Shown: in pieces, positions 1,300-44,089 of the stretch
How positions within the stretch are numbered: the stretch's first letter is position 1
How the letters are laid out: each line of letters opens with the position of its first letter
DNA from: Pseudovibrio sp. Alg231-02
GTDB lineage: Bacteria > Pseudomonadota > Alphaproteobacteria > Rhizobiales > Stappiaceae
Length of the DNA: 61,276 nucleotides
Direction of reading: 5' to 3'
Assembly (NCBI RefSeq): GCF_900143565.1
Contig: NZ_FREX01000017.1
Coordinates: 89-61,364 of the forward strand
Notes under the pieces: generated by a model
The model's database searches: none
What the model was told of the DNA's origin: nothing
The model's input: the letters and a program-made list of their open reading frames with translations, nothing else
Translations under genes and position numbers: made by a program

Positions 1300-2067
1300 A
1301 TGCCTGTTTCATTTTCCGTCTTTGATGCTCAGCATTGGTTTTTGGCTGTGAAAGAGCAATGGCAACGTTGCTGTGAGCCAGGCAAAGTGATGCTTGTTTT
1401 GTTGCCATTGGAGTATCCATTTCCAATGGACCAAGCGTTAACCGCTGAAGAGAAAACAAGAGGTGCCCGGTTCAGGTTCTTGCGAGACCGGCGCGCGTTT
1501 GCCTTGGGTCGCTGGGTCGTTAGAACCATTCTGGGAGTGGATCTGCCGCCAATACCCTTTCTGCTGCAAGATGGTGGTAAGCCATACCTTTCAGGATACC
1601 CGACATTCAATGTGAGTCATTCAGGCGGTTTGGTTGCAGTCGCTTTTGCACAAAATGCGCCCTTGGGTGTTGACATTGAACTCAAGCGACAAGGCAGCCA
1701 AATGACTGATTTGATGCCGCTTGTTTGTCATCCGATGGAGCGTTTACACATTGAATCAAGGAGTTCCAAGGAACGCGCAGCCATGTTTTATCGCTGTTGG
1801 ACCCGGAAAGAAGCCATCTTAAAGGCAACAGGTGAGGGGCTGCGTGATGACCTCAGCTCACTTGACGTTAAGTTAAAGCAACAGCACCCCTGGATCACTT
1901 CAGAACCTCTTCCTTTGAAACTGCTGGATATTGAGGTCGGATGGGAAGGTTACAGCTGTAGCCTCGCAGTGGACCCCGGTATCACTAGTTTAGACATCCA
2001 CTCTCCCTTCCAATTACGCCAACTCGAGTGTTTTGACCAAACCAGCAGTAGCCAATACGTGATCTAA
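1300..2067 (+). CDS. 4'-phosphopantetheinyl transferase, Sfp type
   Basis: A 255-residue Sfp/EntD-type transferase that moves the phosphopantetheine arm of coenzyme A onto the conserved Ser of carrier domains, converting apo-PCP/ACP to holo form. Visible signatures are the FNVSHSGG segment (103-110), the Mg-binding GVDIE motif (Asp125, Glu127) and the WxxKEAxxK motif (Trp167, Lys170, Glu171, Lys175). All key residues are present. It follows the type II thioesterase by 6 bp. Its last 54 bp overlap, tail to tail, the 3' end of pppD on the other strand, so both genes use the same DNA for their C-termini. No terminator is seen between the converging operons. It probably activates the eight PCP domains and one ACP of PppABCD plus the terminal PCP of PppC. 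Confidence 0.93.
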   Translation: MPVSFSVFDAQHWFLAVKEQWQRCCEPGKVMLVLLPLEYPFPMDQALTAEEKTRGARFRFLRDRRAFALGRWVVRTILGVDLPPIPFLLQDGGKPYLSGYPTFNVSHSGGLVAVAFAQNAPLGVDIELKRQGSQMTDLMPLVCHPMERLHIESRSSKERAAMFYRCWTRKEAILKATGEGLRDDLSSLDVKLKQQHPWITSEPLPLKLLDIEVGWEGYSCSLAVDPGITSLDIHSPFQLRQLECFDQTSSSQYVI

Positions 2068-5000
2068 CGTTTCTCCCATGAGTATTGAATAGTGATCTGT
2101 TTCTACAATCTGCCAGTTTTGTAAATCTGGCAGTAGTTTAACCCAGATCTCACGGGAGTTTGCTGGTGTATTTTGGGTTCCGTTCAACCCTTTGGCAGTT
2201 TCAGATGCCAAGAATACATTCGTCCGCCAGAAAGGCGTCGGACTCATTGTATGGTGTACCATCGCTTCCAGGTTGGCTTTCGTACAGCGAACAAGTGCTT
2301 CTCGATAGGCCAGTCGTTCATGACTGTCCTCAACGAGGGCCCTTTTGTCTGGCCATTTCGCCTTCAGCTCCTTTAAGAAGATGATTTCGACTTCTTGCTC
2401 ACTCATTTGCTTCAGATTTTCGCCAGAGTTTGGTGCTGGCGGATCAATGAGCGTTAAGTTGCCGGGAGCTCTTTGTTGCTTCGAGAGGCAGAGCGCCATT
2501 TCTTGAGCAACCCATGCCCCGAATGACCAGCCGACTAAATGAATCCGCTTATTTGCAAACCTTTCCGCTATGGCTTCAGCGTAAACCGCAGCTCTTTCTT
2601 TTAAACTGATTTTTGGTAGATCGGGATTTGTGAGGGCAGGATCGGCAATCACGGTGATCCCAATGTTGTCCGGGAGTTTTCCTGCCAGTTCTCGGTATGC
2701 TTCAACATCACCTCCGATTGGATGTATGAGAACAACAACTTCATCACCCTCACCAGAATGCCATTGGTGCGGGGCAACTGCATCTGCCCAAGTGCTGTTT
2801 GGAGAAGAGGGGTTTGCCTTGTGCTGTTGTTCAACCAGATTCATAATCAGGTCTAAGGAAGTGTTCTTTGGGATTTGGGAGAGTAACACCTGAATGTCAT
2901 AGTTTTCTAAGAGGCTAACGACGTCCAGAAGAGTAAGTGAATCCATACCTAAGTCATAGAGGCATTCATCAGGGGCAAGCTGATCAAGTCCAAGCTGTTG
3001 CAGAAGAAGGGTTTCTATCTGATCGCGAATGAGTTTTAGTTTGTGTGTCTTGCTCGTTCGCGCATCAGATTTGATCTCGTTCCTGACCAGTGATCGATAG
3101 AAGTATCGAGCCTTTTCAACACCACAAGTGCTAACCAGCACTTGTGGTACAGTTGTATGAAATGCTCGAGAGAATGTGCGCAAGCCTTCTTTGTTGGATA
3201 GGCCAAGCGTCAGGTGTTTTTGATGTAGTTCATCTTGTGTATTGGAGTGGGTCGCCATCCCACTTTCGCTCCAGATATCCCAGTTGATGGTGGTTCTGAT
3301 TGTGTCAGGGGTCACCGGATTGCTGTAATGCGCAAAGCTATCCATTAAGGCGTTGGAGGAGGCGTAGTCCAGTTGGCCAGCTCCCCCTAAAACAGCTGAC
3401 ATTGACGAGCAGTAGATAGCCCTCGTTGGCTTGAATACTTCAATGAAACGCTCAACAAAAATGCTTCCCTCATACTTTGCTAGCATCTTGTTGTAGACTT
3501 CTATCGGGTCACGGAAAGAAATCAGATTTCCTTCTCCAACTCCAGAGGCATGGACAACGCCTACAACAGGCATGTTTAATTTGGTGACACTCTCAAACGT
3601 CAGAGGCCACGTGGCTGGCTTTCCTATGTCAGCCTGTATCAGGTGAATTCTTGTATCAAACTGCAGAAGTTTTTCTGGAATGCACGGATTGCGGGAGATA
3701 ATTGCGATTTGAGCATGAGGATCAGCCAGCAGGCTCGTACAAACTTGAATTCCAATCGCACCGCTGCCACCCGTCACCACGAAGAGAGCTGGCGCATCCA
3801 GTTTAGTCAGTTCGGCAGTTTGGCCATTTTGAGAAAGAGGTAAGATCCTGCATTCCCAAACAAATCCATTACGCAAGGCAAGGCGTTGTGGCTTCATATC
3901 TTCGAGTGAGAGTGCAAATGCAATCTCGGACCAAATGAAACCTTGTTTTGTGCCTTCTAAATCCAGCCAGAGTGTTTGGATGCCAAACTCCTGAGGGATC
4001 ACAGAAAGTGGACCAGCGAGTAGCCCGTGTAGCGGCTGAGCGACTGTACCATTCACCGGTGCAGCCTCGTAAGAGAGCAGGCATATTCTGGATATCTCAA
4101 GCCCATATTTAGAGTGAGCCTGAAGCACATAAGTCAGGCTATCCAGACAAACCTTTTTTGCTTCCCGAAGGCTATCCAACTCATTTTGCTCGCCTTTACA
4201 GGACAATGGAAGCGCATGAAGCCAGTCCAACTCTCCAAGGTTCATAAATGACAGGTGGCTCAGAAGGTCTTCAACGGAGTCCGTAGAAAACGGATCTACC
4301 GACAACTTGTCTGAATGAGCACCAGAAATACGTCCGTCATAACAAACAGGCACAACACGATGGTAGACGGCATCAAGTGCGGCAAAGTCATCAGAGACGT
4401 TGTTCGGATCATATAGGACAACCGCTGTTTTTAATCTCTGCCCTGTTTTACAACTTCCAACGCGGCAGACTGGTTGCCAAACCATCTGGCTTAGCCATTG
4501 TTCCTCTGGCAGGCGTTTTGGAAGGTTTTCACTCGCCTTACTCTTGGCTGCTGGAAGCTCTAACACGTTGTATTGTTGAAGATTGAAGCAATAACCCGGC
4601 AAATCCCAAGGCGGCGGAGTACCTGCACTTTGTGACGCAATCTCTTTGCCTGCCAGCCAATCAGCAGCGGTTAGGCTGGCGGGATCGCAAACTCCTTTAT
4701 TCTCATCACAGTAATGCGGGACGAATGATCCCAGAGCTTCAATTGTTTCTTCGACTTCATCACAATCGATAGCAAAACGCCATGGGTGTGCTCGCCTGCT
4801 TGATTGCAAATGTGAGAGAATCTGCTGAAATGAAGTTGGGTTATGTTCAAGATAATTCTTGATCTTTTCTGCCAAAGAAAAAAGTGCAGTCTTGGTATGT
4901 GCTGATAGAACAAGGCATTTTGTAGTCGCGTATCGTTGATGCTCGTCTTCCGAGGCTTCTCCGATTACAACATGAGTGTTTGTGCCGCCAATTCCGAAAC

Positions 5001-8000
5001 TGCTGACGCCTGCATAACGTGGACGTGTATCTTCCCATTTTTTGCTGTTGGTCGGGATATAGAACCCCTTTTGATCCAAGCCAAGTTCTTGATTGGGCTG
5101 CTCAAATCCAAGGTTAGGGGGTACATAGCCGCGATAGATCGACAGTGCTGCGCGAATTAGTCCAAGGACGCCAGCACCGGCACCTAAGTGGCCGATCTGG
5201 CTTTTGACAGATGAAAGTGCGCAGGATGCTTTGGGGAGATTGCCGTATGCAGAGGAAAGGGCTTGTACTTCAATAGGATCACCCAGTTGTGTCCCTGTTC
5301 CGTGCGCTTCCACATATCCGACTTGATCACCCCTTACTCCTGCATTCGTAAGGGCTTGACGAATAACGCTTTCCTGCCCGGAAACTGAAGGTGAAGTATA
5401 ACTCATTTTGGACCGACCATCGTTATTGATGGCTGATCCTTCGATAACAGCATAGATGCGATCACCGTCCGCTCGGGCGCGATCCAATGACTTCAACACC
5501 ACCACCCCAACACCACTGGCGCCGATGGTGCCGCTGGCGTCTTTGCTGAACGGTGAGCAGTTGCCATCCCTGGAAAAGATGTGTTGGGACTGATACTTAT
5601 AGCCCTCTGACATATCGGGATCTACAAGCACGCCTCCTGCTAGCATGACATCACATTCGCCATTTCGGAGCATGCCTGCGGCTGTATGAATGCCAATCAG
5701 CGAGCTTCCACAGGCGGCTTGTAGTGTAATGGCAGGGCCTTTGAGGTCCAGCTGAAAGGCAACCTTGGTGGCTAGGAAGTCTTTCTCATGGTGTAAGGCC
5801 ATTTGGAACTTGTCGGGAAGGGTGGTTGGAGGTTTGGAGCGAAGGGCTGCGTGATAGTAGGTTGTCTCACCACAGCTTGCGATAACACCGATGTTTTGGT
5901 TGGTGTTCAGTGGAGGAATGCCAGCATTTTCAAGAGCATGCACGCAACTCATCAGGAAATGTCGCTGCTGCGGATCCATGAGCGCTGCTTCCCGTGGGCT
6001 GATACCGAAGTACTCAGGATCGAACGACATCATTTCGCTCATCTGACTTCGCGCACCAACGAAATCAGGGTTCTTTGGAGTGAAATGTTCAATTCCGCTT
6101 CGATTTTCACGAACCATTGACCAGAACTCGGCCAGGTCGTCTGCGCCCGGAACACGTAGCGCCATACCGATTATAGCAACTTTATCCGCACTTTGGGCTG
6201 TCGATGATTTGCTAGTCCAAGGTTCTGATTCCGCTTTTCCTTCAAGATGTTCTGCCAGATCTGAAGGCGTCACATAACGAAACAGATCTGCGATACTGAC
6301 TTTTTCTTCCAGTGCTTTATTGATATGCATTTGGTAGCGCATCAATTGCAGGGAAGAGCATCCGGCCTCGAAAAATGTTTGATCCGCAGTGATGGATGCA
6401 CCAGTGACATGTTCAAAAGCTGCAATGAGTTCATTTGTGCGTTGAATTGCGTTATTTGCGTTTATTTTGCGTTTTTTACGTTCAATCTTGCGCCATTTGC
6501 AGCTGGCCAATGCTCTTTGATTTATCTTTCCACTTGGAGCGCGGGGCCACTCGTCGACCTGTCTGAATTCGTCAACCCGGATGTAGTCAGGAAGCTGCGT
6601 TGAAAGATAGTGATCAAGCTCATCTGCGTTGATGGTGTCTTCTCGCAGGCTGACATAGGCATGGAGTTTTTTATGCTGGTCATCAAAGTCAACAGACGCC
6701 TGTTCGATGGCACCGTGATTTATCAAAGAGGCTTCCAACTGGCCGAGTTCAACGCGGTGACCTGAGATCTTCACCTGCTGGTCGTGACGCCCCTCATAGT
6801 TTATCTGTCCAAATTCATCCAGAAAGCCCATGTCACCGGTTTTGTAATAGAGTTTTGAACCGCCAGTGCCATGATCTGACTGGAGTATGACAAAGCGTTC
6901 AGCGTTCAGCTCTGCATTGTCCAAATAACAACGGTGAACCAGATCGCCGCCTATGAGGAGTTGGCCGCGTTCACCGGATGGAACCGGATGGAAGCTGTCA
7001 TCTACGATGAGAATATCGGTGTTGTGAACAGGAGTGCCAATCGGTGGGCGGGTCGGCCAGTTTGCTGCTGGTCCGTGCATAGAGTGGGCGCAAACCACAT
7101 GCGTTTCTGTTGGGCCATAGTGATTGTGCAAGGAGGCTTGGCGTAACTGCGTGAAAAACGCACGGAGGGCTTTGGTGCAATACAACTGCTCGCCGGCCGT
7201 GATCACATTCTTCAAAGCACCGGGGAAGATGTTGAATGTTTGAGCAGCTTCGCAAAACAATTCCAGCGCCACAAAAGGCATAAAGATGCGTTGCAGATTA
7301 TTGTCATGCATGTAGTTCAATAAGCACTGCATGTCCTGTCGCCAAAGAGGATCAATGACATGGAAGCACCCGCCCGAACAGAGCGTTGAAAAGATCTCCT
7401 GAAACGAAACATCGAAGGCTAATTTGGAGAACTGCATGGTGTGTTCTCCGGCGGGCAACCCTCCCTGTTGCTGTTGCCAGTGCAACAAATTGCAAAGTGT
7501 CTGGTTGTAGACATCAACCCCTTTGGGTTGACCAGTGGAGCCGGAGGTAAACAGGGTATACAAGGGCCTTTCGCGACCTGAAAATTTCAGAGGATGCTGA
7601 TGATCGCGTGAATTTCTGAGTTCTTGCAAATCTACTGGGAGCGCGCGTAAGTCTTGGCGATCAAGTGCAGAAGGTAAGGATGCTTGCACTGCATGGAGGA
7701 TCCCGACTGGTTGGGCTTGTGAAATCACACCCTCCAACAGCTTTTGAGGATAGCTCAGGTCCAGCGGAACAGCTGTTACGCCGAGTTTTGTCACTGCCAG
7801 AAGCGAGACTATGTAGTCTGGGGAAGCATCCATATAGAGTGCGACGCGCGTAGGTCCTACAGGTTCTGTTGACCCAAAAATAGTGGACTGCATGTTAGCA
7901 GCCAAAGCATCGGATAACTCGTCCAACTCATGATAGGTGAGAGTGTTGCCGCGCCATGCGAGGGCAGGTGCATGTGGTGATAGTGAGACTTGTTTCTGAA

Positions 8001-11000
8001 ACCAGCTTGCGACCGTTGTGTATGGCAGTGACTGGCTTGTACCAGTTACATGCGAAATGCGTTGTTGTGTGTTGAGTTGGAAGACGTTCGCTGCAACCTC
8101 TTCAGTTTCCATATGATCCAAACCAGCGAACATGGTTTGCTCCAGCAGGGTGATAGCATCATTGTCGAAATAACTGAGATCATACTCCCAGTAGAACTGG
8201 TAGGTTTCAGCTTCATCAAGAACAGACAGGTAGAGCGGGCATTTGGGGGCGACATCTTCAGGGTAAGATAGCTGCGCGCATTCTCCATTGAGCTTTAGCA
8301 TTTCGTAACGGGTGTTTTCGGTCGCAAACATAAACTCAAACGGAATGCCCGAAATACGCTTCCTTTTCTGGAGATGATCAACCACATGTTCGAAGGCAAC
8401 ATCCTGACAGGCAAGGACTTGTTTTGAAGCCTGAGTGAGGGTGCTTGTATTTTGTTGAATGGAGGCAGTTGGGTCGATTTTAACCGGCACCAACGCTGTG
8501 TTGGCGAACATTCCAACTGTTGCTTCAAACTCTGTTGTTAGCCGGTTCGCTACAGGGCTTGCAACTGTGAAACTCGTTCTCCCCGTGTGCACATAAAGTG
8601 CATGGGCAAACAGCGCGTGAAAGACCTGATGGGGTGTTAGTGAAAGACGCTTTGCAATGGTTAGCAAATTTGCTCTGGTGGCTGCGTCAAGACGTGTCAA
8701 ACGTGTTCGCCCCGCTGAAACACCTTGCATCCCTTGACCGTGTTTCAGCACGGGCTTCCAGCATTCCTCCATCTCCGGCGCGTCGTATAGCTTGAAGAGA
8801 GCATCCTTTTGCTTGTTGTAATGTTTAGTTTCCCATAGGTGCGACTGCCATTTTGCAAAATCTAATGGTGTCAGCCCAATTGGCTTTTGGTCCTGTCCTG
8901 TCTCGTCTGTTTCTGCCTGAAATGAACGGGAAAGATCTTCAAACAAGATGTTGAGTGACCAGCCGTCCAGAATGATATGGTGTGCATGAAACAGAAGGAC
9001 GCTGCTGCCATTTGGTTGGTGGACCAGATGAAGTTGAAACAGGCTTGGGTGCTCAAGAACAAATGGTTGAGTGAGGAGTTTGGTTTGGAGTTGCGAAATT
9101 GCTTCTTCTTCCAAGGTTCCGTGGAAGTGAAACGCCTCTGGATTGCTTTCAGCTACCCGCTGTTGCACCCCATCATCAGTGAAATGGAAGCAGGTGCGCA
9201 GTGCCGGGTGTTTTTTGACCAGCTCATATGTTGCGTGACCCAAACTTTCGGAATTCAGATGACCTGAAAACCGAAAGATGAACGGTGTATTGTAAGATAT
9301 GTCAGCAGGGATCCGTTGCTGCTGTAGCCATAACCGCATTTGCTCCGAGGTTGCCTGCTCTTTTGCCAAACCTGATGGAGCAAGTGCAGGCGGTAAACTG
9401 CTGGCTTGCTCATTGTGCTTGCCAACAATCTCAGAGAGTTCAGCAAATGTCAGGTTTAGAAGCTGTGACGGCGCAACGCGGCAGCCAAATACTGAGTTGA
9501 GTTGGTTAGATAAGCTGATTGCTTTGAGTGAATCGCCCCCAGCAGTAAGCAGCGTCTCTTCACGGCTTAACTGCGCCACACTCAACACCATCTCTGCAGT
9601 TTGCAGAATGCTGCTCAGAACGGCACTCTCCGAGGCTTGAGAGGAGGAAGTTCGCCGGAATTGAGCAATCTCCATTTCTTGAAGGGCTTTTCGATCAATC
9701 TTCCCGTTTGCATTCAGAGGTAACGAGCTAAGGCAAAAGACCTTATGAGGACGCATGTAATCTGGCAGGGACGCAGAAAAATGGGCATCAAGCTCTTCAT
9801 AATCAAGCTGCTCTTCAATTGCTAAGTAAGCGTGCAATTCAAGCGGATTGTTTTGCTCCTGCACTGCTAAAACACAAGTCTGCTGTATCTTCGGATATTG
9901 CAGGATGCGTTGCTCGATTTCTTCAGGTTCTACGCGAAACCCGCGTACTTTGATCTGCCTGTCAACGCGGCCCACATACTCGACCAGACCTTGCTGATTG
10001 AGGCGGACCAGATCGCCAGTGCTATACCACTTTCCAGAGTTTGGAAGGTTTACAAACCTGCGCTGTGTTTCCTCTGTTCTATTCAAATAGCCATGAGCGA
10101 CGCCTGCACCGCCAAGGTAGAGTTCTGCAGTTTCTCCAATATTGGTGATCTCGCCGTTTGATGACCTTAGCTGACAGTCTGTACTTGCAATGGGACTGCC
10201 AATGGGAATGATGCCTGCATCAAAGTCCCGAGGAATTGCAAAGCACAAGGCAAAGGTCGCACACTCTGTCGGGCCATAAATATTGTATATCTGACAGGTG
10301 CTTTCAGGGTTTGCAGCATACCATTTCTCGATCGTTTTCGGGTTCAACTGCTCCCCGCCAATGAGCAGATGCCCAAGCGTTCCAAAGCAGTCAGTCCCGT
10401 GATCGACCATCGCATTGAACAGAGAAACTGTCATGAACATGGTTGAGATCGATTGCTGCTCCAGTTGCCGGGCAAAGCCTACAAAATCGGTGAGTTCGTC
10501 ACTGGAGAAAACGACACTACATCCACCAGTTAAAAGCGGCACCCAAACATCGAAGCTGAGTGCATCAAACGCAGGGTTGGAAATGTGCGCGTAGCGATCT
10601 CCAATATGCATTGGGACAAAGCGGGGTTGATGGGCAAGCCTCTCGATTGCTGAGAGAGGCACTTGAACGCCCTTGGGAGCACCCGTTGTTCCAGAGGTGT
10701 AAAACAAAAATGCCGTTTTCGCCAAAGGATAGCGCGGGAGGTCATGGCTATTCTCATGCAGGCTTTGGATGAGTAACTGATCCGCATGAAGGACCTGATG
10801 TGCTTCTCGGGGAAATAGCTTGGATTTACTCGCATCCGGAACGATGAGAAAACGTGTTTGACTATCAGATAAGATTGCTGATTGCCTGGCTGGCGGGCTG
10901 GCGGCATCTAATGGGACAACTGTTGCTCCCGCCTTCAAGATAGAAAGCATGACAACTACGAGCTCTTGTGAACGAGGCAAACAGACGGCAACCACATCGC

Positions 11001-11229
11001 CGTTTTTTACGCCGCAGCCTCTCAATGCTAAGGCGACTTGCGAGGAGAGTTCGTTGAGCTCTTCGTAGCTGAGGATACGATCATGATCCTGCACCGCGGC
11101 CAGTTCTGGGAAATGATCCGCATAAAAGCTGATACTGTCTAACAACGAAGATTGGACGGGTCCCTGATCGCCAATTTCCAAATCATAAGAGGTCGAGGCT
11201 AAGTACTCATGAGAAGTCTTGATAGTCAT
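2014..11229 (-). CDS. pppD: Hybrid NRPS-PKS PppD: A-PCP-C-A-PCP-KS-KR-ACP-TE
   Basis: A 3,071-residue megasynthase. Rough layout: A1 1-520 (core near 180), PCP1 (Ser of GGDSL near 566), C 600-1030 (HHIILDGWS near 753), A2 1060-1540 (core near 1228), PCP2 near 1623, KS 1670-2100 (active Cys in QAACGSS near 1840, His in AHGTGT near 1976 and IGHLGAG near 2010), KR with TGGSGAIG near 2488 and catalytic Tyr of YASSNA near 2623, ACP (LGMDSL near 2760), TE (Ser of GWSFGAW near 2900, later His of DHYSIL). Pocket residues read by eye: A1 DAFFLGITFK (Ile-like), A2 DVQIIAHVVK (Pro-like). There is no AT between KS and KR, so extender loading must come in trans. It begins with A, not C, so it starts its own chain. 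The ATG at 11229 is chosen because AGAGG precedes it and it clears the pppC stop; an upstream ATG at 11283 would overlap pppC by 46 bp. From memory, pppD in Pseudovibrio is needed only for the nonapeptide (B) form. Confidence 0.85.
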   Translation of the reverse strand: MTIKTSHEYLASTSYDLEIGDQGPVQSSLLDSISFYADHFPELAAVQDHDRILSYEELNELSSQVALALRGCGVKNGDVVAVCLPRSQELVVVMLSILKAGATVVPLDAASPPARQSAILSDSQTRFLIVPDASKSKLFPREAHQVLHADQLLIQSLHENSHDLPRYPLAKTAFLFYTSGTTGAPKGVQVPLSAIERLAHQPRFVPMHIGDRYAHISNPAFDALSFDVWVPLLTGGCSVVFSSDELTDFVGFARQLEQQSISTMFMTVSLFNAMVDHGTDCFGTLGHLLIGGEQLNPKTIEKWYAANPESTCQIYNIYGPTECATFALCFAIPRDFDAGIIPIGSPIASTDCQLRSSNGEITNIGETAELYLGGAGVAHGYLNRTEETQRRFVNLPNSGKWYSTGDLVRLNQQGLVEYVGRVDRQIKVRGFRVEPEEIEQRILQYPKIQQTCVLAVQEQNNPLELHAYLAIEEQLDYEELDAHFSASLPDYMRPHKVFCLSSLPLNANGKIDRKALQEMEIAQFRRTSSSQASESAVLSSILQTAEMVLSVAQLSREETLLTAGGDSLKAISLSNQLNSVFGCRVAPSQLLNLTFAELSEIVGKHNEQASSLPPALAPSGLAKEQATSEQMRLWLQQQRIPADISYNTPFIFRFSGHLNSESLGHATYELVKKHPALRTCFHFTDDGVQQRVAESNPEAFHFHGTLEEEAISQLQTKLLTQPFVLEHPSLFQLHLVHQPNGSSVLLFHAHHIILDGWSLNILFEDLSRSFQAETDETGQDQKPIGLTPLDFAKWQSHLWETKHYNKQKDALFKLYDAPEMEECWKPVLKHGQGMQGVSAGRTRLTRLDAATRANLLTIAKRLSLTPHQVFHALFAHALYVHTGRTSFTVASPVANRLTTEFEATVGMFANTALVPVKIDPTASIQQNTSTLTQASKQVLACQDVAFEHVVDHLQKRKRISGIPFEFMFATENTRYEMLKLNGECAQLSYPEDVAPKCPLYLSVLDEAETYQFYWEYDLSYFDNDAITLLEQTMFAGLDHMETEEVAANVFQLNTQQRISHVTGTSQSLPYTTVASWFQKQVSLSPHAPALAWRGNTLTYHELDELSDALAANMQSTIFGSTEPVGPTRVALYMDASPDYIVSLLAVTKLGVTAVPLDLSYPQKLLEGVISQAQPVGILHAVQASLPSALDRQDLRALPVDLQELRNSRDHQHPLKFSGRERPLYTLFTSGSTGQPKGVDVYNQTLCNLLHWQQQQGGLPAGEHTMQFSKLAFDVSFQEIFSTLCSGGCFHVIDPLWRQDMQCLLNYMHDNNLQRIFMPFVALELFCEAAQTFNIFPGALKNVITAGEQLYCTKALRAFFTQLRQASLHNHYGPTETHVVCAHSMHGPAANWPTRPPIGTPVHNTDILIVDDSFHPVPSGERGQLLIGGDLVHRCYLDNAELNAERFVILQSDHGTGGSKLYYKTGDMGFLDEFGQINYEGRHDQQVKISGHRVELGQLEASLINHGAIEQASVDFDDQHKKLHAYVSLREDTINADELDHYLSTQLPDYIRVDEFRQVDEWPRAPSGKINQRALASCKWRKIERKKRKINANNAIQRTNELIAAFEHVTGASITADQTFFEAGCSSLQLMRYQMHINKALEEKVSIADLFRYVTPSDLAEHLEGKAESEPWTSKSSTAQSADKVAIIGMALRVPGADDLAEFWSMVRENRSGIEHFTPKNPDFVGARSQMSEMMSFDPEYFGISPREAALMDPQQRHFLMSCVHALENAGIPPLNTNQNIGVIASCGETTYYHAALRSKPPTTLPDKFQMALHHEKDFLATKVAFQLDLKGPAITLQAACGSSLIGIHTAAGMLRNGECDVMLAGGVLVDPDMSEGYKYQSQHIFSRDGNCSPFSKDASGTIGASGVGVVVLKSLDRARADGDRIYAVIEGSAINNDGRSKMSYTSPSVSGQESVIRQALTNAGVRGDQVGYVEAHGTGTQLGDPIEVQALSSAYGNLPKASCALSSVKSQIGHLGAGAGVLGLIRAALSIYRGYVPPNLGFEQPNQELGLDQKGFYIPTNSKKWEDTRPRYAGVSSFGIGGTNTHVVIGEASEDEHQRYATTKCLVLSAHTKTALFSLAEKIKNYLEHNPTSFQQILSHLQSSRRAHPWRFAIDCDEVEETIEALGSFVPHYCDENKGVCDPASLTAADWLAGKEIASQSAGTPPPWDLPGYCFNLQQYNVLELPAAKSKASENLPKRLPEEQWLSQMVWQPVCRVGSCKTGQRLKTAVVLYDPNNVSDDFAALDAVYHRVVPVCYDGRISGAHSDKLSVDPFSTDSVEDLLSHLSFMNLGELDWLHALPLSCKGEQNELDSLREAKKVCLDSLTYVLQAHSKYGLEISRICLLSYEAAPVNGTVAQPLHGLLAGPLSVIPQEFGIQTLWLDLEGTKQGFIWSEIAFALSLEDMKPQRLALRNGFVWECRILPLSQNGQTAELTKLDAPALFVVTGGSGAIGIQVCTSLLADPHAQIAIISRNPCIPEKLLQFDTRIHLIQADIGKPATWPLTFESVTKLNMPVVGVVHASGVGEGNLISFRDPIEVYNKMLAKYEGSIFVERFIEVFKPTRAIYCSSMSAVLGGAGQLDYASSNALMDSFAHYSNPVTPDTIRTTINWDIWSESGMATHSNTQDELHQKHLTLGLSNKEGLRTFSRAFHTTVPQVLVSTCGVEKARYFYRSLVRNEIKSDARTSKTHKLKLIRDQIETLLLQQLGLDQLAPDECLYDLGMDSLTLLDVVSLLENYDIQVLLSQIPKNTSLDLIMNLVEQQHKANPSSPNSTWADAVAPHQWHSGEGDEVVVLIHPIGGDVEAYRELAGKLPDNIGITVIADPALTNPDLPKISLKERAAVYAEAIAERFANKRIHLVGWSFGAWVAQEMALCLSKQQRAPGNLTLIDPPAPNSGENLKQMSEQEVEIIFLKELKAKWPDKRALVEDSHERLAYREALVRCTKANLEAMVHHTMSPTPFWRTNVFLASETAKGLNGTQNTPANSREIWVKLLPDLQNWQIVETDHYSILMGETLDHVLATAGLVKTLELA

Positions 11230-11237
11230 GTAAGCCT

Positions 11238-14200
11238 CTAAGCGTCTATCTGCATATGAACAGCAGGAAAGGTGGTTTGCCATTCAAATAATTGAAATTC
11301 ATGGGAAATCGCTTTTTTGACGCGCTGTATTTCTTCTGATTCCAACAGTTCCCAATGGTCTCCCCGAACCAGTCTCGTCATGAAGCCGCCTTTAGCTTTT
11401 TCAATCCAAAACTGACGCAGTTGATGCAGGAAGCCTTTGTTGAGCGAGCCAAGCGCCTGAATGAACACAACTCGCGCGTCCAATGGCTGGCAATCATAAT
11501 CTGGCACACAGGCCCGATTGTGATTGTAAACCTGATGGTAACGCTTGATTTGCTCGTCATCGATGCCCGGATACATACCGTTGAACTTCACCAGCTTGTC
11601 TCGAAATTCTGCAAGATCTACCGGTGCAAGGCTCTGGCGCTCATGTTCTTCAAACCCCTGAGTGTCCAGAAGAATGACGCTGACATTGTGATTGCCACGG
11701 GCTTTCAGGAGCCGGGCCATCTCATAGGCAACGTAGCCTCCAAACGACAGGCCGGTGAGGACAATCTTTTCATGTGCGATGTGTTCAATACGTTCCAGAT
11801 AGGCGTTGGCCATGGCCATTATGGAGGGGAGAGGTTCCTCTCCTGAATTGAGGCCAGGTGATTGCAGACCATAAACGCCAATTTCATCAGACAGGATCTT
11901 CGCCAGAGACAGATAGCAAAAGGCTGTTCCACCAGCAGGGTGAACGCACACGACATGCTCACCGTTTTGGCTTTCGCGGAACGTTATGAGGTTGTCGCGG
12001 GAGTTTTCTTCCGCAGCTCCGTTTCGGATCCAACTGGCGAGCGCCTCTACTGTCGGATTTAGAATGAATATTTTGGGCGGGACTTGAATTTTGAACGTCT
12101 CACCAACCCGATGAGCCACCTTGATCGCTGCGATGGAAGAGCCGCCGACATGGAAGAAACTGTCGCTGATACCAATGGATGGATGGAGAAGCACTTCCTT
12201 CCAGATGTTATAGATCTGGAGCTCGATATAATCGCGTGGGCTTTCCTGATTGACCTTAAACACGGCCTCATGGGCCAGCACAGATGCCTTTAGGCTGGAA
12301 TAATCAATCTTGCCGTTATTGGTGAGAGGGAGTGTTTCCAAATGCAGCAGAATATGAGGAAGCATGTAGTCTGGAAGTGCTTCTGCCAGATGATGACGAA
12401 GGTCGCTTTCTACGAGGGGAGAACCATCTGGTGTGGTGTAGCAAAGTGCCAGTTGGGCTATACCACCTTCTTGCTGAACCACGAGCGCGGCACAGCTGTG
12501 GCATTCGGGATATTGTCGGAGGATAGCTTCAATCTCTGACAGCTCGATGCGAAAACCGTTCAGCTTGATCTGGTTGTCTTTGCGGCCTGCAAAAATCAGC
12601 TGACCTTGCTCATCGTAGTAGGCAAGGTCGCCCGTACGGTAGAGCTGTTCACTTGAGTTGAATGGGCTGGTAACGAACGCTGATGCTTGTTGCTGCGGGG
12701 CGTTAAGATAGCCAGAAGACAGGCTGGCACCACCGATATATAGCTCGCCAACCAGTCCAACCGGGACAATCGACATGCTCTCATCAAGCAGGTAAGTCCT
12801 TGCGTTTGATATGGGTTTGCCGATGGGGGCTGAAGGTTTGTCCAGATCTTCCGGCTTCACACTATGCCAGGTGCTGTCTACGGTGCATTCAGTCGGGCCG
12901 TAAACATTATGCAGAGTCGCCCACGGCAGCTTGCTGGAAAACTTGCGCATAAGTGCACCGCTCAGCTCACCACCACCACAAAACACATTGCGCAGTTGGG
13001 TGCATTGGGCAGCCTCTGGTTCATCAAGAAACAGATCCAGCATCGCAGGGACGAACTGGATGGTGGTGATACCATGAGATGCGCAGATCGTTGTCAGCTC
13101 GGGAGGCGAGGCGTGAGCAAGAGGCGGAGCCAGTACCAGCGATGCACCAGAGCATAACGGCCAGAAGAATTCCCAGATCGCCGCATCAAATCCCATCGGT
13201 GTCTTCTGCAAAAGAGCATCACCGGGCTTGCCTGGAAATGTGCGATCGCTCCACTCTATGAGGTTCACCAAACCCTTGTGAGTCAGCTTGGTGCCTTTGG
13301 GAACGCCGGTGGTCCCAGATGTGTAGATGATATAGGCAAGATCCTCGGTGCTTATACCGTTAGCTGGCAAATTATCAGTGCTGTAGGACTGAGTGACTTT
13401 GGCTCGTTGCTCTGTATCCAGTGATAAGACTTTAACGTCACAATGGCCCTTGAGTCTGGTGACCGCTTCCGATGCCTCTGGATGGGTGAGGATCAGATTG
13501 GGCTGGCTGTCTTGCACCATATATTCAAGACGCTTGATTGGCAGCCCGGGCTCCAACGGAATGAAGTGACCACCCGCCTTCAGCACGGCAAGCATGGCTA
13601 TCACCAACTCGCTGGACCGCTCAAAAAGCAGGCCCACTGGACTTCCCTCAGTAACACCAAGTTCCTTCAGGTGGCGGGCAAGTTGATTTACTTTGGTGTT
13701 GAGGCTGGCGTAGCTCCACACGTCTTCGCCGCACACGAGTGCAGGTGCTCGGGGTGAATGCTCGCATTGAGCCTCAAATGCTTTGTGAATGTACGTTGAG
13801 CTTAACGCGTGCTGCGCTCCGTGAGGCCATACCTGCGTTAACAGATGCCTTTCTTCGGGGGGGATGAAATCAATCGCACCGAGGTCCACTTCTGGTGCTT
13901 CGACGGCGTTTGAGAGGAAGCAGGTGAGGTGACTGGCCATTCGCGCAATGCGGGATTGCGTAAACAGATCTTTGTTGTACTCAAAGCCAAGGCTAAACGT
14001 GGAGCCTCGTTCAAATACTTCCAGTGTGATATCGAACTTTGCTGTCTGGCTGTCTGTTGCCAGTGTTTCGATTTCAACACCATCCATTTGAGCCGATCCC
14101 CCCGGCAGGTTCTGATAAATCAGCATGACCTGAAACAGAGGCGAGTGAGCTGGTGAGCGTTCCGGATTTACAGCTTCGACTACTTTCTCAAAAGGCAAAT

Positions 14201-34087: not shown

Positions 34088-34479
34088 GAAACAACTATCA
34101 TTGATTGTGTAATTGAATAAAAATATATATTACTGAGAGTTATTTGTACTTACTCTCAGTCCATGCGTCCGTTTAGATCGGATTCAGGGAAGTAAAGGTG
34201 AATTTTATTCATTGAGGCCTCGGGTATTAAATTTTTAATTGCTCAAACTTTCTTTCTAATATATCACAAAGTCAAGTTATAATTCGAATCTGAAGGCATC
34301 TTGTTAGCGTGCTGGGGAAACAAATGAACCACTCATATTTGAGGGAGAGCATCTCATTATTGTTATGATCGACAAGCTAGGGGGCTGGTCGAGTAATGAT
34401 TGTGAAGTTTTCTACTACAACTAATTCGCTGCGCAATTTCCGCGCCGAACGTCTTCATTAACGAGCAGGTTTTTTGTTC
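34088..34479. promoter_or_regulatory. Divergent regulatory region between pppA and the exporter operon
   Basis: This 392-bp AT-rich gap separates the leftward NRPS operon from the rightward MFS-dioxygenase operon, so it must hold both promoters. No frame in it resembles a gene. It contains a 9-bp inverted repeat (34132-34160) close to the pppA side and AT-rich runs such as aatatatat at 34122-34130. I could not place convincing -35/-10 pairs on either strand. No regulator gene lies next to it, so any specific control must come from elsewhere in the genome. Confidence 0.6.
34132..34160. repeat. Inverted repeat in pppA upstream region
   Basis: The arms actgagagt (34132-34140) and actctcagt (34152-34160) are perfect reverse complements, separated by 11 bp. 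The repeat sits 45-73 bp upstream of the pppA start. It could be a dimeric regulator's operator or a stem-loop in the pppA leader. There is no U-run on either side, so a terminator is unlikely. Function is inferred only from position and symmetry. Confidence 0.5.
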
Positions 34480-35718
34480 ATGCCCGTACCAAGTCACCGG
34501 CAATCATTTCTGCGTCAGTTCTGGGTACTTCCGAGACCAGCAAAAACTATCCTGGTTGGCACCTTTTGCGCACGCTTTGCATCGTTCATGATCTGGCCTT
34601 TCTTCGCGGTACTCATGGCACGAAACTTCGGCACCTCTATTGCAGAACTTGGAGTAGTTTTTTCGCTATCAGCGTTTGCTGCGCTTATTGCTTCGCCTGT
34701 AAGTGGGATTATAGCGGACAAGTTGAATCGTCGCGCGATCATGCTGATCAGTGCTTTAAGCATCTTAGGGCTCTATTGCGTTCTGGCGTTTGGAAGGGAT
34801 GAACGGATCTATTTTGCGGTCATTGTGGGCATGTCCGTTGCCAATGGTGCACTCGAGCCGCTTTTGCGATCTGCATTGGGGGACTGCGCAGCGAAGGATG
34901 AAGACCGACCACTGCTGTTTCACATACGCTACTATCTGGTCAATATCGCAGGTGCGTTAGGGCCTTTGTGCGGGCTATGGTTTGCAAACCAAAACTCAAA
35001 CTTCGCTTTTCTGGCAGGTGCGGTTGCGTACGCTGCTCTCGCGCTCTGCATAATGAAAAGTGTCGCGCCAAGCATTGTTGTCTCAGACAAGGAGGAAATG
35101 CCGATTTCGACACTGTTAAAAACAGCAGTAGTAGATCGTCTTTTTCTGACATTGTTTATCTCAAATTTCTTCCTGGTCATCTTGTACGCACAAATAGATG
35201 AGCCCCTCACATTTTTCCTGATGTCTCTCGAAACGCCAGATATCAATGGGATTATTGCCTCGATCAACGTTACAAACACGAGCGTCGTTTTGATCGTCCA
35301 TCTGTTCTTGATGAAGTGGCTGGTTGAGCTTGAAGAACACAAGGCCATTCTGGCTGCTTTCTTTTTCCTGATGCTTGGTCTGCTGGTGATCGCTTCCAAT
35401 CGCTCCGAAGTAAGGGAGTTGTGGCTTGTTGCGATAGCACTTGCGACATTGGCGGAAATTATCGCCATGCCTTTGTTTGCCACAGTGGTGGATCGCACCG
35501 CTCCTGTGCGTCTTAGGAACAGCTATATGGGCCTTTATATGCTTTCCAATGCGGGCGCTGCTGCGGTGCCATTTGCTGCAGCAATGGTGATTGAACGTAT
35601 CGGTGGAGGGCCATTGTTCCTCACATCCGCGATAATGTGCGTACCGGTAGCTTACCTGGGTTTCCGGCTGCTCAGTGCAACCAGACAAAGAGAAAAAATT
35701 GCGGAGCAGGCCAGCTGA
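34480..35718 (+). CDS. MFS transporter, probable peptide exporter
   Basis: A 412-residue inner-membrane protein with many hydrophobic segments, consistent with a 12-helix major facilitator. The loop after helix 2 holds the DKLNRR stretch (the family's GxxxDrxGRR-like loop) following GIIA. The family moves small molecules by proton-coupled antiport or symport. As first gene of the operon divergent from the NRPS genes it is the natural candidate to export the peptide. The ATG at 34480 is preceded by AGCAGG; an in-frame TTG lies 6 bp upstream. Substrate is inferred from context only. Confidence 0.8.
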   Translation: MPVPSHRQSFLRQFWVLPRPAKTILVGTFCARFASFMIWPFFAVLMARNFGTSIAELGVVFSLSAFAALIASPVSGIIADKLNRRAIMLISALSILGLYCVLAFGRDERIYFAVIVGMSVANGALEPLLRSALGDCAAKDEDRPLLFHIRYYLVNIAGALGPLCGLWFANQNSNFAFLAGAVAYAALALCIMKSVAPSIVVSDKEEMPISTLLKTAVVDRLFLTLFISNFFLVILYAQIDEPLTFFLMSLETPDINGIIASINVTNTSVVLIVHLFLMKWLVELEEHKAILAAFFFLMLGLLVIASNRSEVRELWLVAIALATLAEIIAMPLFATVVDRTAPVRLRNSYMGLYMLSNAGAAAVPFAAAMVIERIGGGPLFLTSAIMCVPVAYLGFRLLSATRQREKIAEQAS

Positions 35719-35753: not shown

Positions 35754-36800
35754 ATGAACCCGTACAGTTCGCTGGCTTCCAACAAATTCTGGCGCCCATC
35801 GGTCGCAGAGCGAGACTATTTCTCGATCTCGCAGGTCTGGACCCCGAAGTTTCAGATACAGAAAGATGCGGCCATAATAACTGCCGGGTCTTGTTTCTCT
35901 CAGAACATGGGCAAAGAACTGCAGCGACGAGGGATGAACTGGCACAATGCTGAACCCGCGCCTGACAGTTTAAGCGCTCGGGAAGCCCTTGATCACAACT
36001 ATGGCGTTTTCTCATTCAGAACAGGAAACATCTATACTGCACGTTTGTTGTTGCAATGGCTCCAATGGGCTTTTGATGAAGTCCCCCAGTCTAAAGAGAC
36101 TTGGAATAATGGAGAGCGGTACTTCGATCCATTCCGGCCCAATATTTCCCCAGATGGCTTTGAAAGCCCTCAAGCCATGTGGGCATCACGTGAAGACACC
36201 CTTGCAGCTATTCGCAAAGCGGTAAGCTCTGCTGATCTGTTCGTGTTTACTATGGGTTTGACAGAGGCTTGGCTCAATACGGCTACAGATGTTGTCTATC
36301 CCATGTGCCCTGGCACAGTGAAAGGCCGGTTTGATGAAAGATTGCATAAAGCGCATAATTTTGCCTTTGCAGAAATACTCTCTGATTTTCAAAAATGTAT
36401 CGATCTTATAGGAAGACACAATCCCAACCTGCGTCTGGTGTTTACCGTTTCACCGGTTCCGGTCACAGCGACATTCACGATGCATCATGTGCTAACAGCT
36501 TCCACCTATACCAAGTCTGTTCTGAGAGCTGTAGCAGGGCAGTTGGAAGCCTCCAATGAGAACGTCGAGTACTTTCCCTCTTACGAACTGGTTGCTTCTC
36601 CTCCCATGAACGGAGTGTTTTACAACCCCAACAAGCGCACGATCACACCAACCGGCGTCCGATTTGTAATGGGTCATTTCTTTAATGGCATATCTTCTGC
36701 TGACCAGATGCATCAAGGCCATTCAGACGTCAGCACGCAATCACTCCTGCCAACTGAGGATATCATCTGTGAAGAAGAACTACTCGACTATTACAAATGA
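35754..36800 (+). CDS. GSCFA-domain protein, SGNH-like esterase/acyltransferase candidate
   Basis: A 348-residue protein with the family-naming motif GSCF at 45-48, where the Ser-containing turn resembles the nucleophile of SGNH hydrolases. GSCFA proteins are thought to be SGNH-like but their reactions are mostly unknown. No signal peptide or membrane segment is seen, so it is probably cytoplasmic. A GAGGAG site stands before the ATG. Its 3' end overlaps the next gene, also SGNH-like, by 32 bp, which points to paired action. In this cluster two separately released peptide products must be joined by an ester bond, and this protein is one candidate for that step (inference). Confidence 0.75.
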   Translation: MNPYSSLASNKFWRPSVAERDYFSISQVWTPKFQIQKDAAIITAGSCFSQNMGKELQRRGMNWHNAEPAPDSLSAREALDHNYGVFSFRTGNIYTARLLLQWLQWAFDEVPQSKETWNNGERYFDPFRPNISPDGFESPQAMWASREDTLAAIRKAVSSADLFVFTMGLTEAWLNTATDVVYPMCPGTVKGRFDERLHKAHNFAFAEILSDFQKCIDLIGRHNPNLRLVFTVSPVPVTATFTMHHVLTASTYTKSVLRAVAGQLEASNENVEYFPSYELVASPPMNGVFYNPNKRTITPTGVRFVMGHFFNGISSADQMHQGHSDVSTQSLLPTEDIICEEELLDYYK

Positions 36801-37482
36801 CATTCAGTTCTTGTTGTTAGGAGACTCCCACGCTGGCGCAATTGGGCGTGCGGCCAAAGAAGCTGGGATCCCTTTCGTTGGTGGTCCTATGGGCGCAGGG
36901 CGCGAGTTCACAGCTCCTTTTGTTGACTGGAATAACGAAGATCCAGTTTTTCGAAGTGGCTATGCCAATGAAATGTATCGGTCTTTTCTGGAGGAACTCG
37001 ATGCAAATTCGCTGCAGGATGTAAAGGTTCCACTGCTCTGCACTTTCGGCTTTGCGCTGCATTTTTACGCAACCACTGAAAACTGGGAGATATACAGGGA
37101 GGTTGACGGAACGCTGCCATCAGCCTTTCTGGAAGGCCCTCTGTTTCATGGCCTTATCTGTGCCATGGTACAGGGCGCTTTGGATTTCTACCGCACCGTT
37201 CTCAAAATGGGAGTTGAGGTGATTGCCGTTCTTCCTCCCCAGAAAGTACCTGAGACTTCAGAGCCAAGTGTTTTCCAAGCAGCGCAAAACGTTATGATTG
37301 CAGAAGCAGAACGCTTGGGCCTTCCGGTTCTGGACGTTCGCGATGGTACTATGGGTTTCGATAGATTACAGAACGAAGACTTCTCGCAGGAAAATGACCC
37401 GATTCACGGGAATACTGCATTTGGTCAGGCTATTTTGAATGCGTTTTCCAGTCAGAGGATATCAGCACATGTTGGTGCGTGA
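36769..37482 (+). CDS. SGNH-hydrolase-like protein
   Basis: A 237-residue protein starting LLLGDSHAG: the GDSH motif (nucleophile candidate Ser20) and a late DPIH pair (Asp210, His213) give a full SGNH-type catalytic set. The family includes esterases, acyltransferases and thioesterases. The start is the GTG at 36769, supported by GAGGA 8 bp upstream; a longer frame from 36685 would lie almost wholly inside the previous gene and lacks such a site. It overlaps its neighbours on both sides, so it is translationally coupled. No signal peptide is seen. Like the GSCFA protein, it is a candidate for joining or trimming the peptide products; the real substrate is unknown. Confidence 0.72.
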   Translation: MKKNYSTITNDIQFLLLGDSHAGAIGRAAKEAGIPFVGGPMGAGREFTAPFVDWNNEDPVFRSGYANEMYRSFLEELDANSLQDVKVPLLCTFGFALHFYATTENWEIYREVDGTLPSAFLEGPLFHGLICAMVQGALDFYRTVLKMGVEVIAVLPPQKVPETSEPSVFQAAQNVMIAEAERLGLPVLDVRDGTMGFDRLQNEDFSQENDPIHGNTAFGQAILNAFSSQRISAHVGA

Positions 37483-38107
37483 TTTGGAGCAAATACACAT
37501 TGAGGCTGACCTGGCGAGTTGTATCGTGTCTTTGTTGACCGATGGTACGGTTCAGAGACTCCATGCGTACATGGGGCGAACAGTACTGGTGCTTGGAGTT
37601 GAAGCAGCACAGATGCGTGGGGAAAGCACCCGTGAGCTGGAATGCCTCAAAGATATGCATTGCAAAGCGGCGATAGGGGATATGCCAGTATCCGAGTGTT
37701 GGCTCAACGCGTTAGAAGATGCTTACTTAGTCCTGTTTCGCCTTGCGTTCGTTGCGGAGAAAACCTACCGCGTTTCACACTCCAGTGCGCTTGAGTTTGC
37801 CGCGGGCAATAAAGATATGATCGAGAGCGAGTTTGGCTCTGCGGAAGCTTATGCTGATTATTATGGCACTTTAAACAGCGAAGCCAACACAAGGGCGTTT
37901 GCTCGGGCAAATGCGCAGGTTCATTCCAACATAAACGCCAAACTGTTTACTGATGGCTCGCTGCAGGGGGCAGATACGACTGCTCTCCTCAGCCTGTTTA
38001 AAGCTTCGGCCTATGCCTTTGCGTGTGCTCATGCATTTGGTGAATTGGAGAGGCGTTACTGTGAAGCTTTGCTACGCCTCGTTAGAGGCCTCCAAACTAT
38101 TGCTTAA
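37469..38107 (+). CDS. Unrecognised 212-residue protein in ppp accessory operon
   Basis: I do not recognise this family. The protein is rich in Ala, Leu and Glu and reads as mostly helical, without a signal peptide, membrane helix or known catalytic motif. The ATG at 37469 follows AGAGGA with a 9-bp spacer and overlaps the SGNH gene by 14 bp; the longer in-frame start at 37439 has no such site. It ends 23 bp before the dioxygenase gene. The coupling on both sides suggests it works with the SGNH-like and dioxygenase proteins, for example as a partner or an oxygen-dependent helical enzyme, but nothing in the sequence decides this. Confidence 0.65.
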   Translation: MLVRDLEQIHIEADLASCIVSLLTDGTVQRLHAYMGRTVLVLGVEAAQMRGESTRELECLKDMHCKAAIGDMPVSECWLNALEDAYLVLFRLAFVAEKTYRVSHSSALEFAAGNKDMIESEFGSAEAYADYYGTLNSEANTRAFARANAQVHSNINAKLFTDGSLQGADTTALLSLFKASAYAFACAHAFGELERRYCEALLRLVRGLQTIA

Positions 38108-38130: not shown

Positions 38131-39042
38131 ATGCATGAACATGCTCTGACAGCTATTGAAAGTATTGCGGCAGCGCCTCGAGAAACCTACCGGCATATTC
38201 AGCTGGACCGCCTTACACCGGTCATTGGTGCTGAAGTTTGTGGAGTAAATCTATCTGATGGCGTAAGCAAAGAGCAGTTTGCTGAGATCCACCGTGCCTT
38301 TCTTGAAAACCACGTCCTGGTGTTCCGCAACCAAAAACTCACCAAAGACCAACAGAAGGAGTTTGCTCGGCAGTTTGGTACACTGCGTGCTCTTCCACTG
38401 AGTGATATTGATGGTGATGATCCAGAGATTGTCTTAATCCGTGCCGGTAAGAAATCTCGATTTGTAGCAGGAGAGGTTTGGCATACAGATGGTACAGCTG
38501 ATCCTGCCCCTTCGCATAGCTCGATGTTGTACATGCATGAGACACCTGAACTTGGATGCGGCGGGGATACCTTGTTCGCGAACATGCATCTGGCCTATGA
38601 GATGCTGTCGCCTGTGATGAAAGAGTTCTTACTTGGGCTCACTGCAGTTCACGATGGAGCCGTGCCGTGGAAGGGCTTCACGCCACCAGAAGGGCTACCT
38701 AAAACTGAGCACCCAATAGTTGCGAAGCATCCAGAGACAGGCAAGCCAATGCTTTTTGTGAACTCAGGTTTTACAACGCACATCCCGAGTTTATCCGAGG
38801 ACGAGAGTGATGCCATTTTGAACATGCTCTTTCAACTCGTTGAACGCGAACAGGCATTGAATTGTCGTATACGGTGGGAACCGGGCACATTGGTATTTTG
38901 GGACAATCGCTGCACGCAACATCGCGCAGTCTGGGACTATTACCCATATTCCCGCTTTGGCGAACGCGTGACTGTTTTGGGCACTCAACCTGCCGCCGCA
39001 GAACCTCATCGGGTCATGAAGGAGATGGAGTTAGCAGACTAA
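38131..39042 (+). CDS. TauD/TfdA-family Fe(II)/2-oxoglutarate dioxygenase
   Basis: A 303-residue non-heme iron oxygenase. The iron ligands are visible: His118 and Asp120 in WHTDG, and His264 in CTQHRAVWDY. Arg275, 11 residues after the distal His, fits the 2-oxoglutarate carboxylate ligand as in TauD, with Arg279 also present. The family hydroxylates or desaturates unactivated carbons using O2 and 2-oxoglutarate. A GGGAGAG site precedes the ATG. It is the last gene of the operon and stands 12 bp before an IS5 end. In this setting it probably tailors a residue of the peptide, but it could also be a taurine- or arylalkyl-sulfonate-type enzyme by family. Confidence 0.85.
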   Translation: MHEHALTAIESIAAAPRETYRHIQLDRLTPVIGAEVCGVNLSDGVSKEQFAEIHRAFLENHVLVFRNQKLTKDQQKEFARQFGTLRALPLSDIDGDDPEIVLIRAGKKSRFVAGEVWHTDGTADPAPSHSSMLYMHETPELGCGGDTLFANMHLAYEMLSPVMKEFLLGLTAVHDGAVPWKGFTPPEGLPKTEHPIVAKHPETGKPMLFVNSGFTTHIPSLSEDESDAILNMLFQLVEREQALNCRIRWEPGTLVFWDNRCTQHRAVWDYYPYSRFGERVTVLGTQPAAAEPHRVMKEMELAD

Positions 39043-39564: not shown

Positions 39565-39580
39565 GGCCCTGTTGCAAATA
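39565..39580 (+). repeat. IS6 terminal inverted repeat, left
   Basis: ggccctgttgcaaata is the exact reverse complement of 40434-40449, and the same repeat closes the left copy at 377-392. It marks the junction with the IS5 remnant. Confidence 0.93.
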
Positions 39581-39677
39581 CTATTCGGATGCCGGATGTT
39601 TGGGTAAAGCAAGAGGTATTCCAGTGAGCGGTGATTTCAAATGGTGGCATTATCGTGGGGAAGTCATCCTGTGAGCT

Positions 39678-43275: not shown

Positions 43276-43313
43276 CGCTGGCAGTCAAACTAAGAGCTCC
43301 TGCCGAGACATCG

Positions 43314-44060: not shown

Positions 44061-44089
44061 GCTTTCAGTCAAACAGGCTTTTTGAGGCT

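Follow-up and report, generated by a model that had tools for sequence, protein, structure and literature searches.

A GSCFA protein, an SGNH-like protein and an SpcZ-like protein as a probable O-acyltransferase complex of a Pseudovibrio peptide cluster

Our analysis concerns a 61,276-nt stretch of DNA from Pseudovibrio sp. Alg231-02 (contig NZ_FREX01000017.1, positions 89 to 61,364; "the window" means this whole stretch) and, within it, three overlapping genes that stand divergent from a nonribosomal peptide synthetase (NRPS) operon. We conclude with good confidence that their products, PppH, PppI and PppJ, act as a cytoplasmic O-acyltransferase complex, which adds a propionyl group to a proline hydroxyl made by the dioxygenase PppK, and that the ester between the two peptide chains is made by the thioesterase (TE) of PppC. 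We consider the trio probably an O-propionyltransferase complex because the homologous PipDFG proteins O-acetylate hydroxyproline while an NRPS thioesterase joins the chains. The original prediction, made from the window's sequence, had taken the trio for dedicated SGNH-type acyltransferase machinery in which three proteins act together on an NRPS product, which is very probably right; the bond that it assigned to them, the intermolecular ester, is a different matter (see below).

As longest open reading frames (ORFs) the three genes occupy 35754-36800 (348 aa), 36685-37482 and 37439-38107 on the plus strand, overlapping as originally described. A likelier start for the second is GTG 36769 (237 aa), with GAGG ahead of it, and for the third ATG 37469 (212 aa), so that the revised overlaps are 32 bases between the first and second genes and 14 bases between the second and third.

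35754..36800, plus strand: PppH, GSCFA protein (PF08885) with a predicted SGNH fold and a flexible C-terminal tail; equivalent to PipG by family and by the position of Cys47
36769..37482, plus strand: PppI, SGNH-like protein with Ser20/Asp210/His213
37469..38107, plus strand: PppJ, all-alpha, SpcZ-like protein; no Pfam match

The trio had been described as two SGNH-fold proteins and one unrecognised partner. GSCFA membership of PppH is certain (170.8 bits against PF08885, cut-off 25), and PppJ indeed gave no Pfam match at E <= 1 and no NCBIfam match, while for PppI the term SGNH reflects motifs and weak matches, because its Pfam support lies below the cut-off: no family scored above it, the nearest being PF19040 (E 0.08). 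The motifs are GDSH (Ser20, codon 36826-36828) and DPIH (Asp210, 37396-37398; His213, 37405-37407), and among 58 PppI homologues Gly18, Ser20 and His213 are present in all 58 and Asp210 in 57. At E <= 0.01, four of the 58 homologues match PF19040 and two match PF13472; a PppI profile searched against PDB sequences gave four weak matches at E <= 10, one of them a GDSL lipase (E 0.81).

In Pseudomonas entomophila, PipD, PipF and PipG are each needed for the final O-acetylation of hydroxyproline, and their loss leads to accumulation of 4d, the full-length product bearing the hydroxyl; the essential residues are Cys47 in PipG and Ser18 and His211 in PipF, and the inter-chain ester is made by the PipB thioesterase, whose deletion or Ser2856Ala substitution abolishes it (all PMC12828459). 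That system has the same GSCFA protein (PipG), putative serine hydrolase (PipF), third protein (PipD) and dioxygenase, and its essential residues are all present in the window, as Ser20 and His213 of PppI and Cys47 of PppH. Ser20/Asp210/His213 of PppI correspond to Ser18/Asp208/His211 in two other Pseudomonas homologues (loci L063 and L068), exactly the numbering reported for PipF; our comparison with PipDFG is thus by reported numbering and through these homologues rather than with the P. entomophila sequences. The three trio genes are said to co-occur only with detoxin/rimosamide-like (DRL) clusters (PMC12828459), and the window has all three together with a DRL NRPS/polyketide synthase (PKS) system and the dioxygenase. 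PipDFG differs in adding an acetyl group, the Pseudovibrio system a propionyl group. The accessory genes of detoxin, rimosamide and miramide (detH/detI/detL, rmoJ/rmoK/rmoM and mirD/mirC/mirA) likewise encode a GSCFA protein, SpcZ and a putative protein beside a dioxygenase of the taurine type (PMC9503745), and a Streptomyces plasmid locus carries PppH, PppI, PppK and PppJ homologues in a detoxin-like arrangement.

Judged by its genes, the cluster in the window is very probably the published pseudovibriamide cluster, from the same or a related strain: that of Pseudovibrio brasiliensis Ab134 has the same transporter, trio, dioxygenase PppK, phosphopantetheinyl transferase and type II thioesterase (PMC11796379). 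The names PppA-K are applied here from gene order and domain matches, not from direct comparison with strain Ab134; among named species, the GSCFA protein is closest to those of Pseudovibrio axinellae (96%) and P. denitrificans (83%). In P. brasiliensis, strains with a single in-frame deletion of pppH, pppI or pppJ make the heptapeptide PA alone, PB and PC being lost, and all products return on complementation; a pppK deletion strain makes PB and PC analogues lacking both the hydroxyl and the propionyl group (dPB and dPC). The authors, who labelled PppH SGNH-like, proposed hydroxyproline propionylation and/or trans-acyltransferase activity for the trio; a role as a PB hydrolase was considered and rejected by them (PMC11796379).

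Taken together, we propose that PppK hydroxylates a proline in the PppD-derived part and that the PppHIJ complex would then propionylate this hydroxyl. PppI would be the catalytic subunit, working through Ser20-Asp210-His213 by a ping-pong mechanism from a coenzyme A (CoA) thioester, the donor probably being propionyl-CoA. PppH would be its partner, anchored to it by the flexible tail and perhaps passing on the acyl group via Cys47. PppJ may fit a more general GSCFA-SGNH pair to detoxin-like peptides, and the PppC thioesterase would join the heptapeptide to the short chain through an ester. The trio would thus decide whether a detoxin-like peptide bears its O-acyl group, a group that strengthens the protection which the Pseudomonas peptide gives Bacillus cereus from blasticidin S (PMC12828459).

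The predicted structure of PppH has an SGNH fold (Foldseek matches), and the GSCF motif (residues 45-48, TAGSCF; Cys47 codon 35892-35894) is invariant across the 66 rows of our GSCFA alignment, which was made without L124, a sequence reading GSSF. By the starts of the aligned ranges, Cys47 falls on Ser15 of Axe2 (4jko, S15A) and Ser10 of 5b5l (S10A), suggesting that it sits at the place of the catalytic block I serine of SGNH enzymes, which the model lacks. Asp191 of Axe2 (4jj4, D191A) corresponds to PppH Asn293 by the end of the aligned range, not by residue alignment; this position is Asn in 60 of 61 sequences, and position 296, where the His is expected, is T, S, E, N or others. By these range offsets, again not a residue alignment, the block V Asp-His pair appears to be missing. 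PppH thus differs from SGNH O-acetyltransferases and acetylesterases (PatB, OatA, Ape1) in having Cys for Ser and Asn293/Thr296 for the expected Asp/His. His51 and Glu296 have been offered, with Cys47, as a possible PipG triad (PMC12828459), but this triad is not general, position 51 being Asn in the window (His in 58/66) and position 296 Thr (Glu in 9/66). A second invariant cysteine, Cys339 (codon 36768-36770), lies in the flexible tail of PppH's GSCFA subfamily; none of 13 other GSCFA proteins showed it, and these lack an SGNH-like partner as well. We saw no signal peptide in PppH by eye, and therefore it is probably cytoplasmic. The Foldseek matches of the model include SsfX3 (PDB 3skv, E 1e-3), which we take to be a natural-product acyltransferase (salicylyl-acyltransferase of a tetracycline pathway); unlike PppH, it has a polyketide substrate, acts as a single protein and uses a serine nucleophile.

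Several observations weigh against this assignment of the trio. The main one is that the Pseudovibrio trio deletions lose PB and PC altogether: the authors expected an unpropionylated product, yet detected none in the pppH, pppI or pppJ deletions (PMC11796379), so that after loss of the trio Pseudovibrio keeps PA only while Pseudomonas keeps the full-length hydroxy product. Expression of pipDFG with a Streptomyces detoxin-type pathway in E. coli gave no acetylation (PMC12828459), and the literature covered reports no in vitro activity of the trio. Among seven DRL genomes searched whole, PppJ was found in four (including two of five picked for a PppJ-less flank); three gave no match, and therefore PppJ may not always be needed. 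Propionyl-CoA as the donor is something we infer, the SGNH assignment of PppI is read from its sequence and not from a predicted fold, and the mapping of PppH residues onto SGNH enzymes comes from alignment ranges and not from residue alignments.

The loss of PB and PC can still be accounted for in three ways: the trio may act earlier, while the chain is bound to PppD; the unacylated product may be unstable or have escaped detection; or the trio may have a further role in PKS loading. The first amounts to a variant of our assignment, with a little under an even chance of being correct, in which the trio acylates the PppD-bound chain before release and a chain with an unacylated hydroxyl is not released or joined. 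This would explain why no unpropionylated hydroxy product is seen while the pppK deletion yields dPB and dPC, and the Pseudomonas authors themselves note that the timing differs between their system and the pseudovibriamide and chitinimide systems (PMC12828459); an unstable, undetected product would, however, look the same.

Trans-acyltransferase activity, one of the two published proposals (PMC11796379), would have the trio load the PKS module of PppD. PppD has KS and KR matches and no AT match at E <= 1e-5, and the loss of PB and PC with retention of PA in the deletions (PMC11796379) is what such a role predicts. We nevertheless consider it improbable: the three proteins match no acyltransferase-domain family (Pfam E <= 1) and no NCBIfam family, the PipC carrier protein is transacylated by FabD in vitro and E. 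coli given pipC by itself makes product 1a (PMC12828459), 4d accumulates without the trio (PMC12828459), and 46 of 80 sampled loci have the GSCFA-SGNH pair without PppK, with an NRPS match in only one of them, L088.

Least probable by far is the role first proposed, joining of the heptapeptide to the short PppD chain through an ester, which would account for the loss of PB in each deletion and for the requirement for three proteins, and of which SGNH-type proteins are capable in principle, but which we reject because its loss alone should leave both released chains, yet PC is lost too (PMC11796379), and because in Pseudomonas the full-length ester-linked product forms without the homologous trio and disappears with PipB thioesterase deletion or Ser2856Ala (PMC12828459). 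The deletion test suggested with that proposal has been published for P. brasiliensis, and each mutant retains the heptapeptide alone (PMC11796379). It had itself allowed that a thioesterase could make the ester instead, as thioesterases of homologous systems have been shown to do (PipB, PMC12828459); the chitinimide thioesterase (Niu et al. 2024, as cited in PMC12828459 and PMC12911931) is also reported to join chains, PppC carries a TE domain with GLSFG at the end of the heptapeptide NRPS, and additional PppDEF raised PB and lowered PA, which its authors read as support for ester formation by the module 7 thioesterase (PMC12911931). TE domains terminate both PppC and PppD, an arrangement that the original prediction did not mention, nor did it name the TauD-type hydroxylase.

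Our assignment places the trio in a cluster with the following other features.

34474..35718, plus strand: PppG, MFS transporter (PF07690), upstream of the trio
38131..39042, plus strand: PppK, TauD/TfdA-type dioxygenase (PF02668), directly downstream of the trio; hydroxylates the proline that bears the acyl group (PMC11796379)
2014-34087, minus strand: NRPS operon of four NRPS and NRPS/PKS genes, divergent from the trio
11238-15359, minus strand: PppC, heptapeptide NRPS
11304..11957, minus strand: PppC terminal thioesterase domain (PF00975 at residues 1135-1352; GLSFG, Ser1205)
2014..11283, minus strand: PppD, NRPS/PKS hybrid with A, C, PCP, KS, KR and TE matches
about 2050-2736, minus strand: PppD terminal TE (domain match)
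1300-2067: phosphopantetheinyl transferase gene, beyond the NRPS genes
508-1293: thioesterase gene, beyond the NRPS genes

Since the trio, its mutants and the function of its homologue are already in print, the window itself offers little that is new. Named genomes were scanned with the PppH alignment, and of at least 584 related stretches we took the best 80 (a sample that leans to close relatives). An SGNH-like gene adjoins or is fused to the GSCFA gene in 79 of these 80 loci: 77 were adjacent by profile, L081 by motif, and L078 was fused, two of the 77 profile matches being incomplete (L126 at a contig end, L127 split). The arrangement of the first two trio genes is therefore not due to chance. 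The exception, L124:1573-2676 (Streptomyces sp. SID3212), belongs to a detoxin-like cluster; the GSCFA protein there has GSS in place of GSC and keeps the tail, and the draft genome gave no PppI or PppJ match. PppK is present in 34 of the 80 loci, and in the fetched stretches of these we found NRPS in 31, PppI in 33 and PppJ in 29, while the remaining 46 have neither PppK nor PppJ and only L088 shows an NRPS match, further along. As 79/80 loci are paired and 46/80 lack both PppK and PppJ, the pair is a wider module. Two of the three trio genes, then, do not need the third, which agrees with and extends the published co-occurrence (PMC12828459).

In the class to which the window belongs, 18 of 289 genomes gave a GSCFA match. 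The 20 class neighbourhoods examined were those other than the window, two NRPS-linked loci and fragments in genomes G099 and G228. In a first set, 13 GSCFA proteins scored 87-139 bits against the PppH profile and showed neither the tail motif nor, in the fetched stretch, an SGNH-like match. A second set comprised seven loci above 300 bits and L060, split over two ORFs (228 + 106 bits); here an SGNH-like partner was found in seven of eight loci, adjacent or, in L042, within the same protein. The eighth, L043:7369-8598, has the tail motif (CDEEVI) with no SGNH-like neighbour detected, so that two loci with the tail are counterexamples to a rule that the tail goes with a partner: L043, where none was found, and L124, which has lost it. 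The two fusions, L042:6733-8547 and L078:9845-11761 (Noviherbaspirillum denitrificans), carry the tail motif, CEE..L, between the GSCFA and SGNH-like parts; L078 reads GDSQ in place of GDSH.

The neighbours of the PppK-less pairs were surveyed with longest-ORF gene calls in 131 of 222 flanking ORFs from 39 of the 46 loci, the scan leaving aside seven loci (five of them Roseobacter-type with L087-like flanks), mostly ORFs under 150 aa, and ORFs above 900 aa. No family was widely shared among the 131, the most frequent being Glyco_tranf_2_4 (4/131; 25 of 146 families listed), and therefore no common substrate can be read from context. Single hints of polysaccharide come from a Leisingera plasmid and from two glycosyltransferase fusions. 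On plasmid NZ_CP081038.1 of Leisingera sp. M527 (L005:18956-20687), a pair 46%/29% identical to PppH/PppI lies among exopolysaccharide genes (YjbH, YjbF, sugar transferases), with no annotated NRPS in 40.7 kb. In two Methylococcaceae loci, L088:11059-12633 and L121:11050-12738, the SGNH-like partner forms one protein with a glycosyltransferase DXD domain (PF04488); downstream in L088 lie a transposase, an oxygenase of the cupin type (about 2.4 kb) and the NRPS (about 3.4 kb).

PppJ behaves differently from the pair. Among the loci and genomes examined it was seen with detoxin/rimosamide-like genes only, and it was not found in any of 11 whole genomes whose pair is without PppK. Homologues beyond Pseudovibrio are 20-28% identical to the window PppJ. 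In the family of a Streptomyces locus PppJ occurs in at least seven of 200 genomes, a lower bound, as 14 candidates were scored per genome. PppH was on the same contig as PppJ, about 1.6 to 27 kb apart, in all eight genomes searched for it (six of those seven and two further PppJ genomes). L008:8001-9797 (Streptomyces sp. NBC_00271 plasmid), with a PppJ homologue (annotated SpcZ), PppI and PppK pieces and no PppH match in 16 kb, is a counterexample to a constant association of PppJ with PppH; it has the look of a detoxin-like cluster that has eroded. In the GSCFA tree, built without L124 and with three of five distant GSCFA rows flagged as long branches, the DRL proteins require a single change (support 70/72; in 71% of bootstrap trees), and with this modest support a single recruitment of the pair into DRL pathways is likely. 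Alignment row L009 (genome G211) seems to duplicate L085, one of the 80 loci, and is not independent.

These observations lead us to a broader suggestion, which we hold only tentatively and think rather less likely than its opposite: that the GSCFA-SGNH pair could be a cytoplasmic acyltransferase of general use, one that is common in Pseudomonadota beyond natural-product clusters and has two subunits, a triad-less cysteine SGNH protein (Cys47, with tail Cys339) and a serine SGNH enzyme, with acyl groups perhaps passing from Cys to Ser, and recruited once into detoxin-like NRPS pathways, where PppJ would have been gained as a substrate adaptor. A 2022 list placed GSCFA among the families with neither a known function nor a solved structure (PMC9487903); if true, this suggestion would give the uncharacterised family a function, and the pair offers a testable route to GSCFA function beyond NRPS clusters. 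Our literature search, whose scope took in neither preprints nor supplements nor most subscription journals, did not find the pair as a wider module, the fusions or the tail cysteine in print. A different GSCFA partnership is seen in Tannerella and Porphyromonas, where a GSCFA gene and vanT form a two-gene cassette (PMC13298647).

Elsewhere in the window, transposase-like ORFs follow right after PppK (39121-40397; translations judged by eye). Further along, positions 41008-51218 encode HEAT repeats, DUF4132, a dynein-related AAA ATPase (MoxR-like), DUF5682 and a CoxE-type VWA protein, a block that looks like a single multi-gene ATPase-VWA system.
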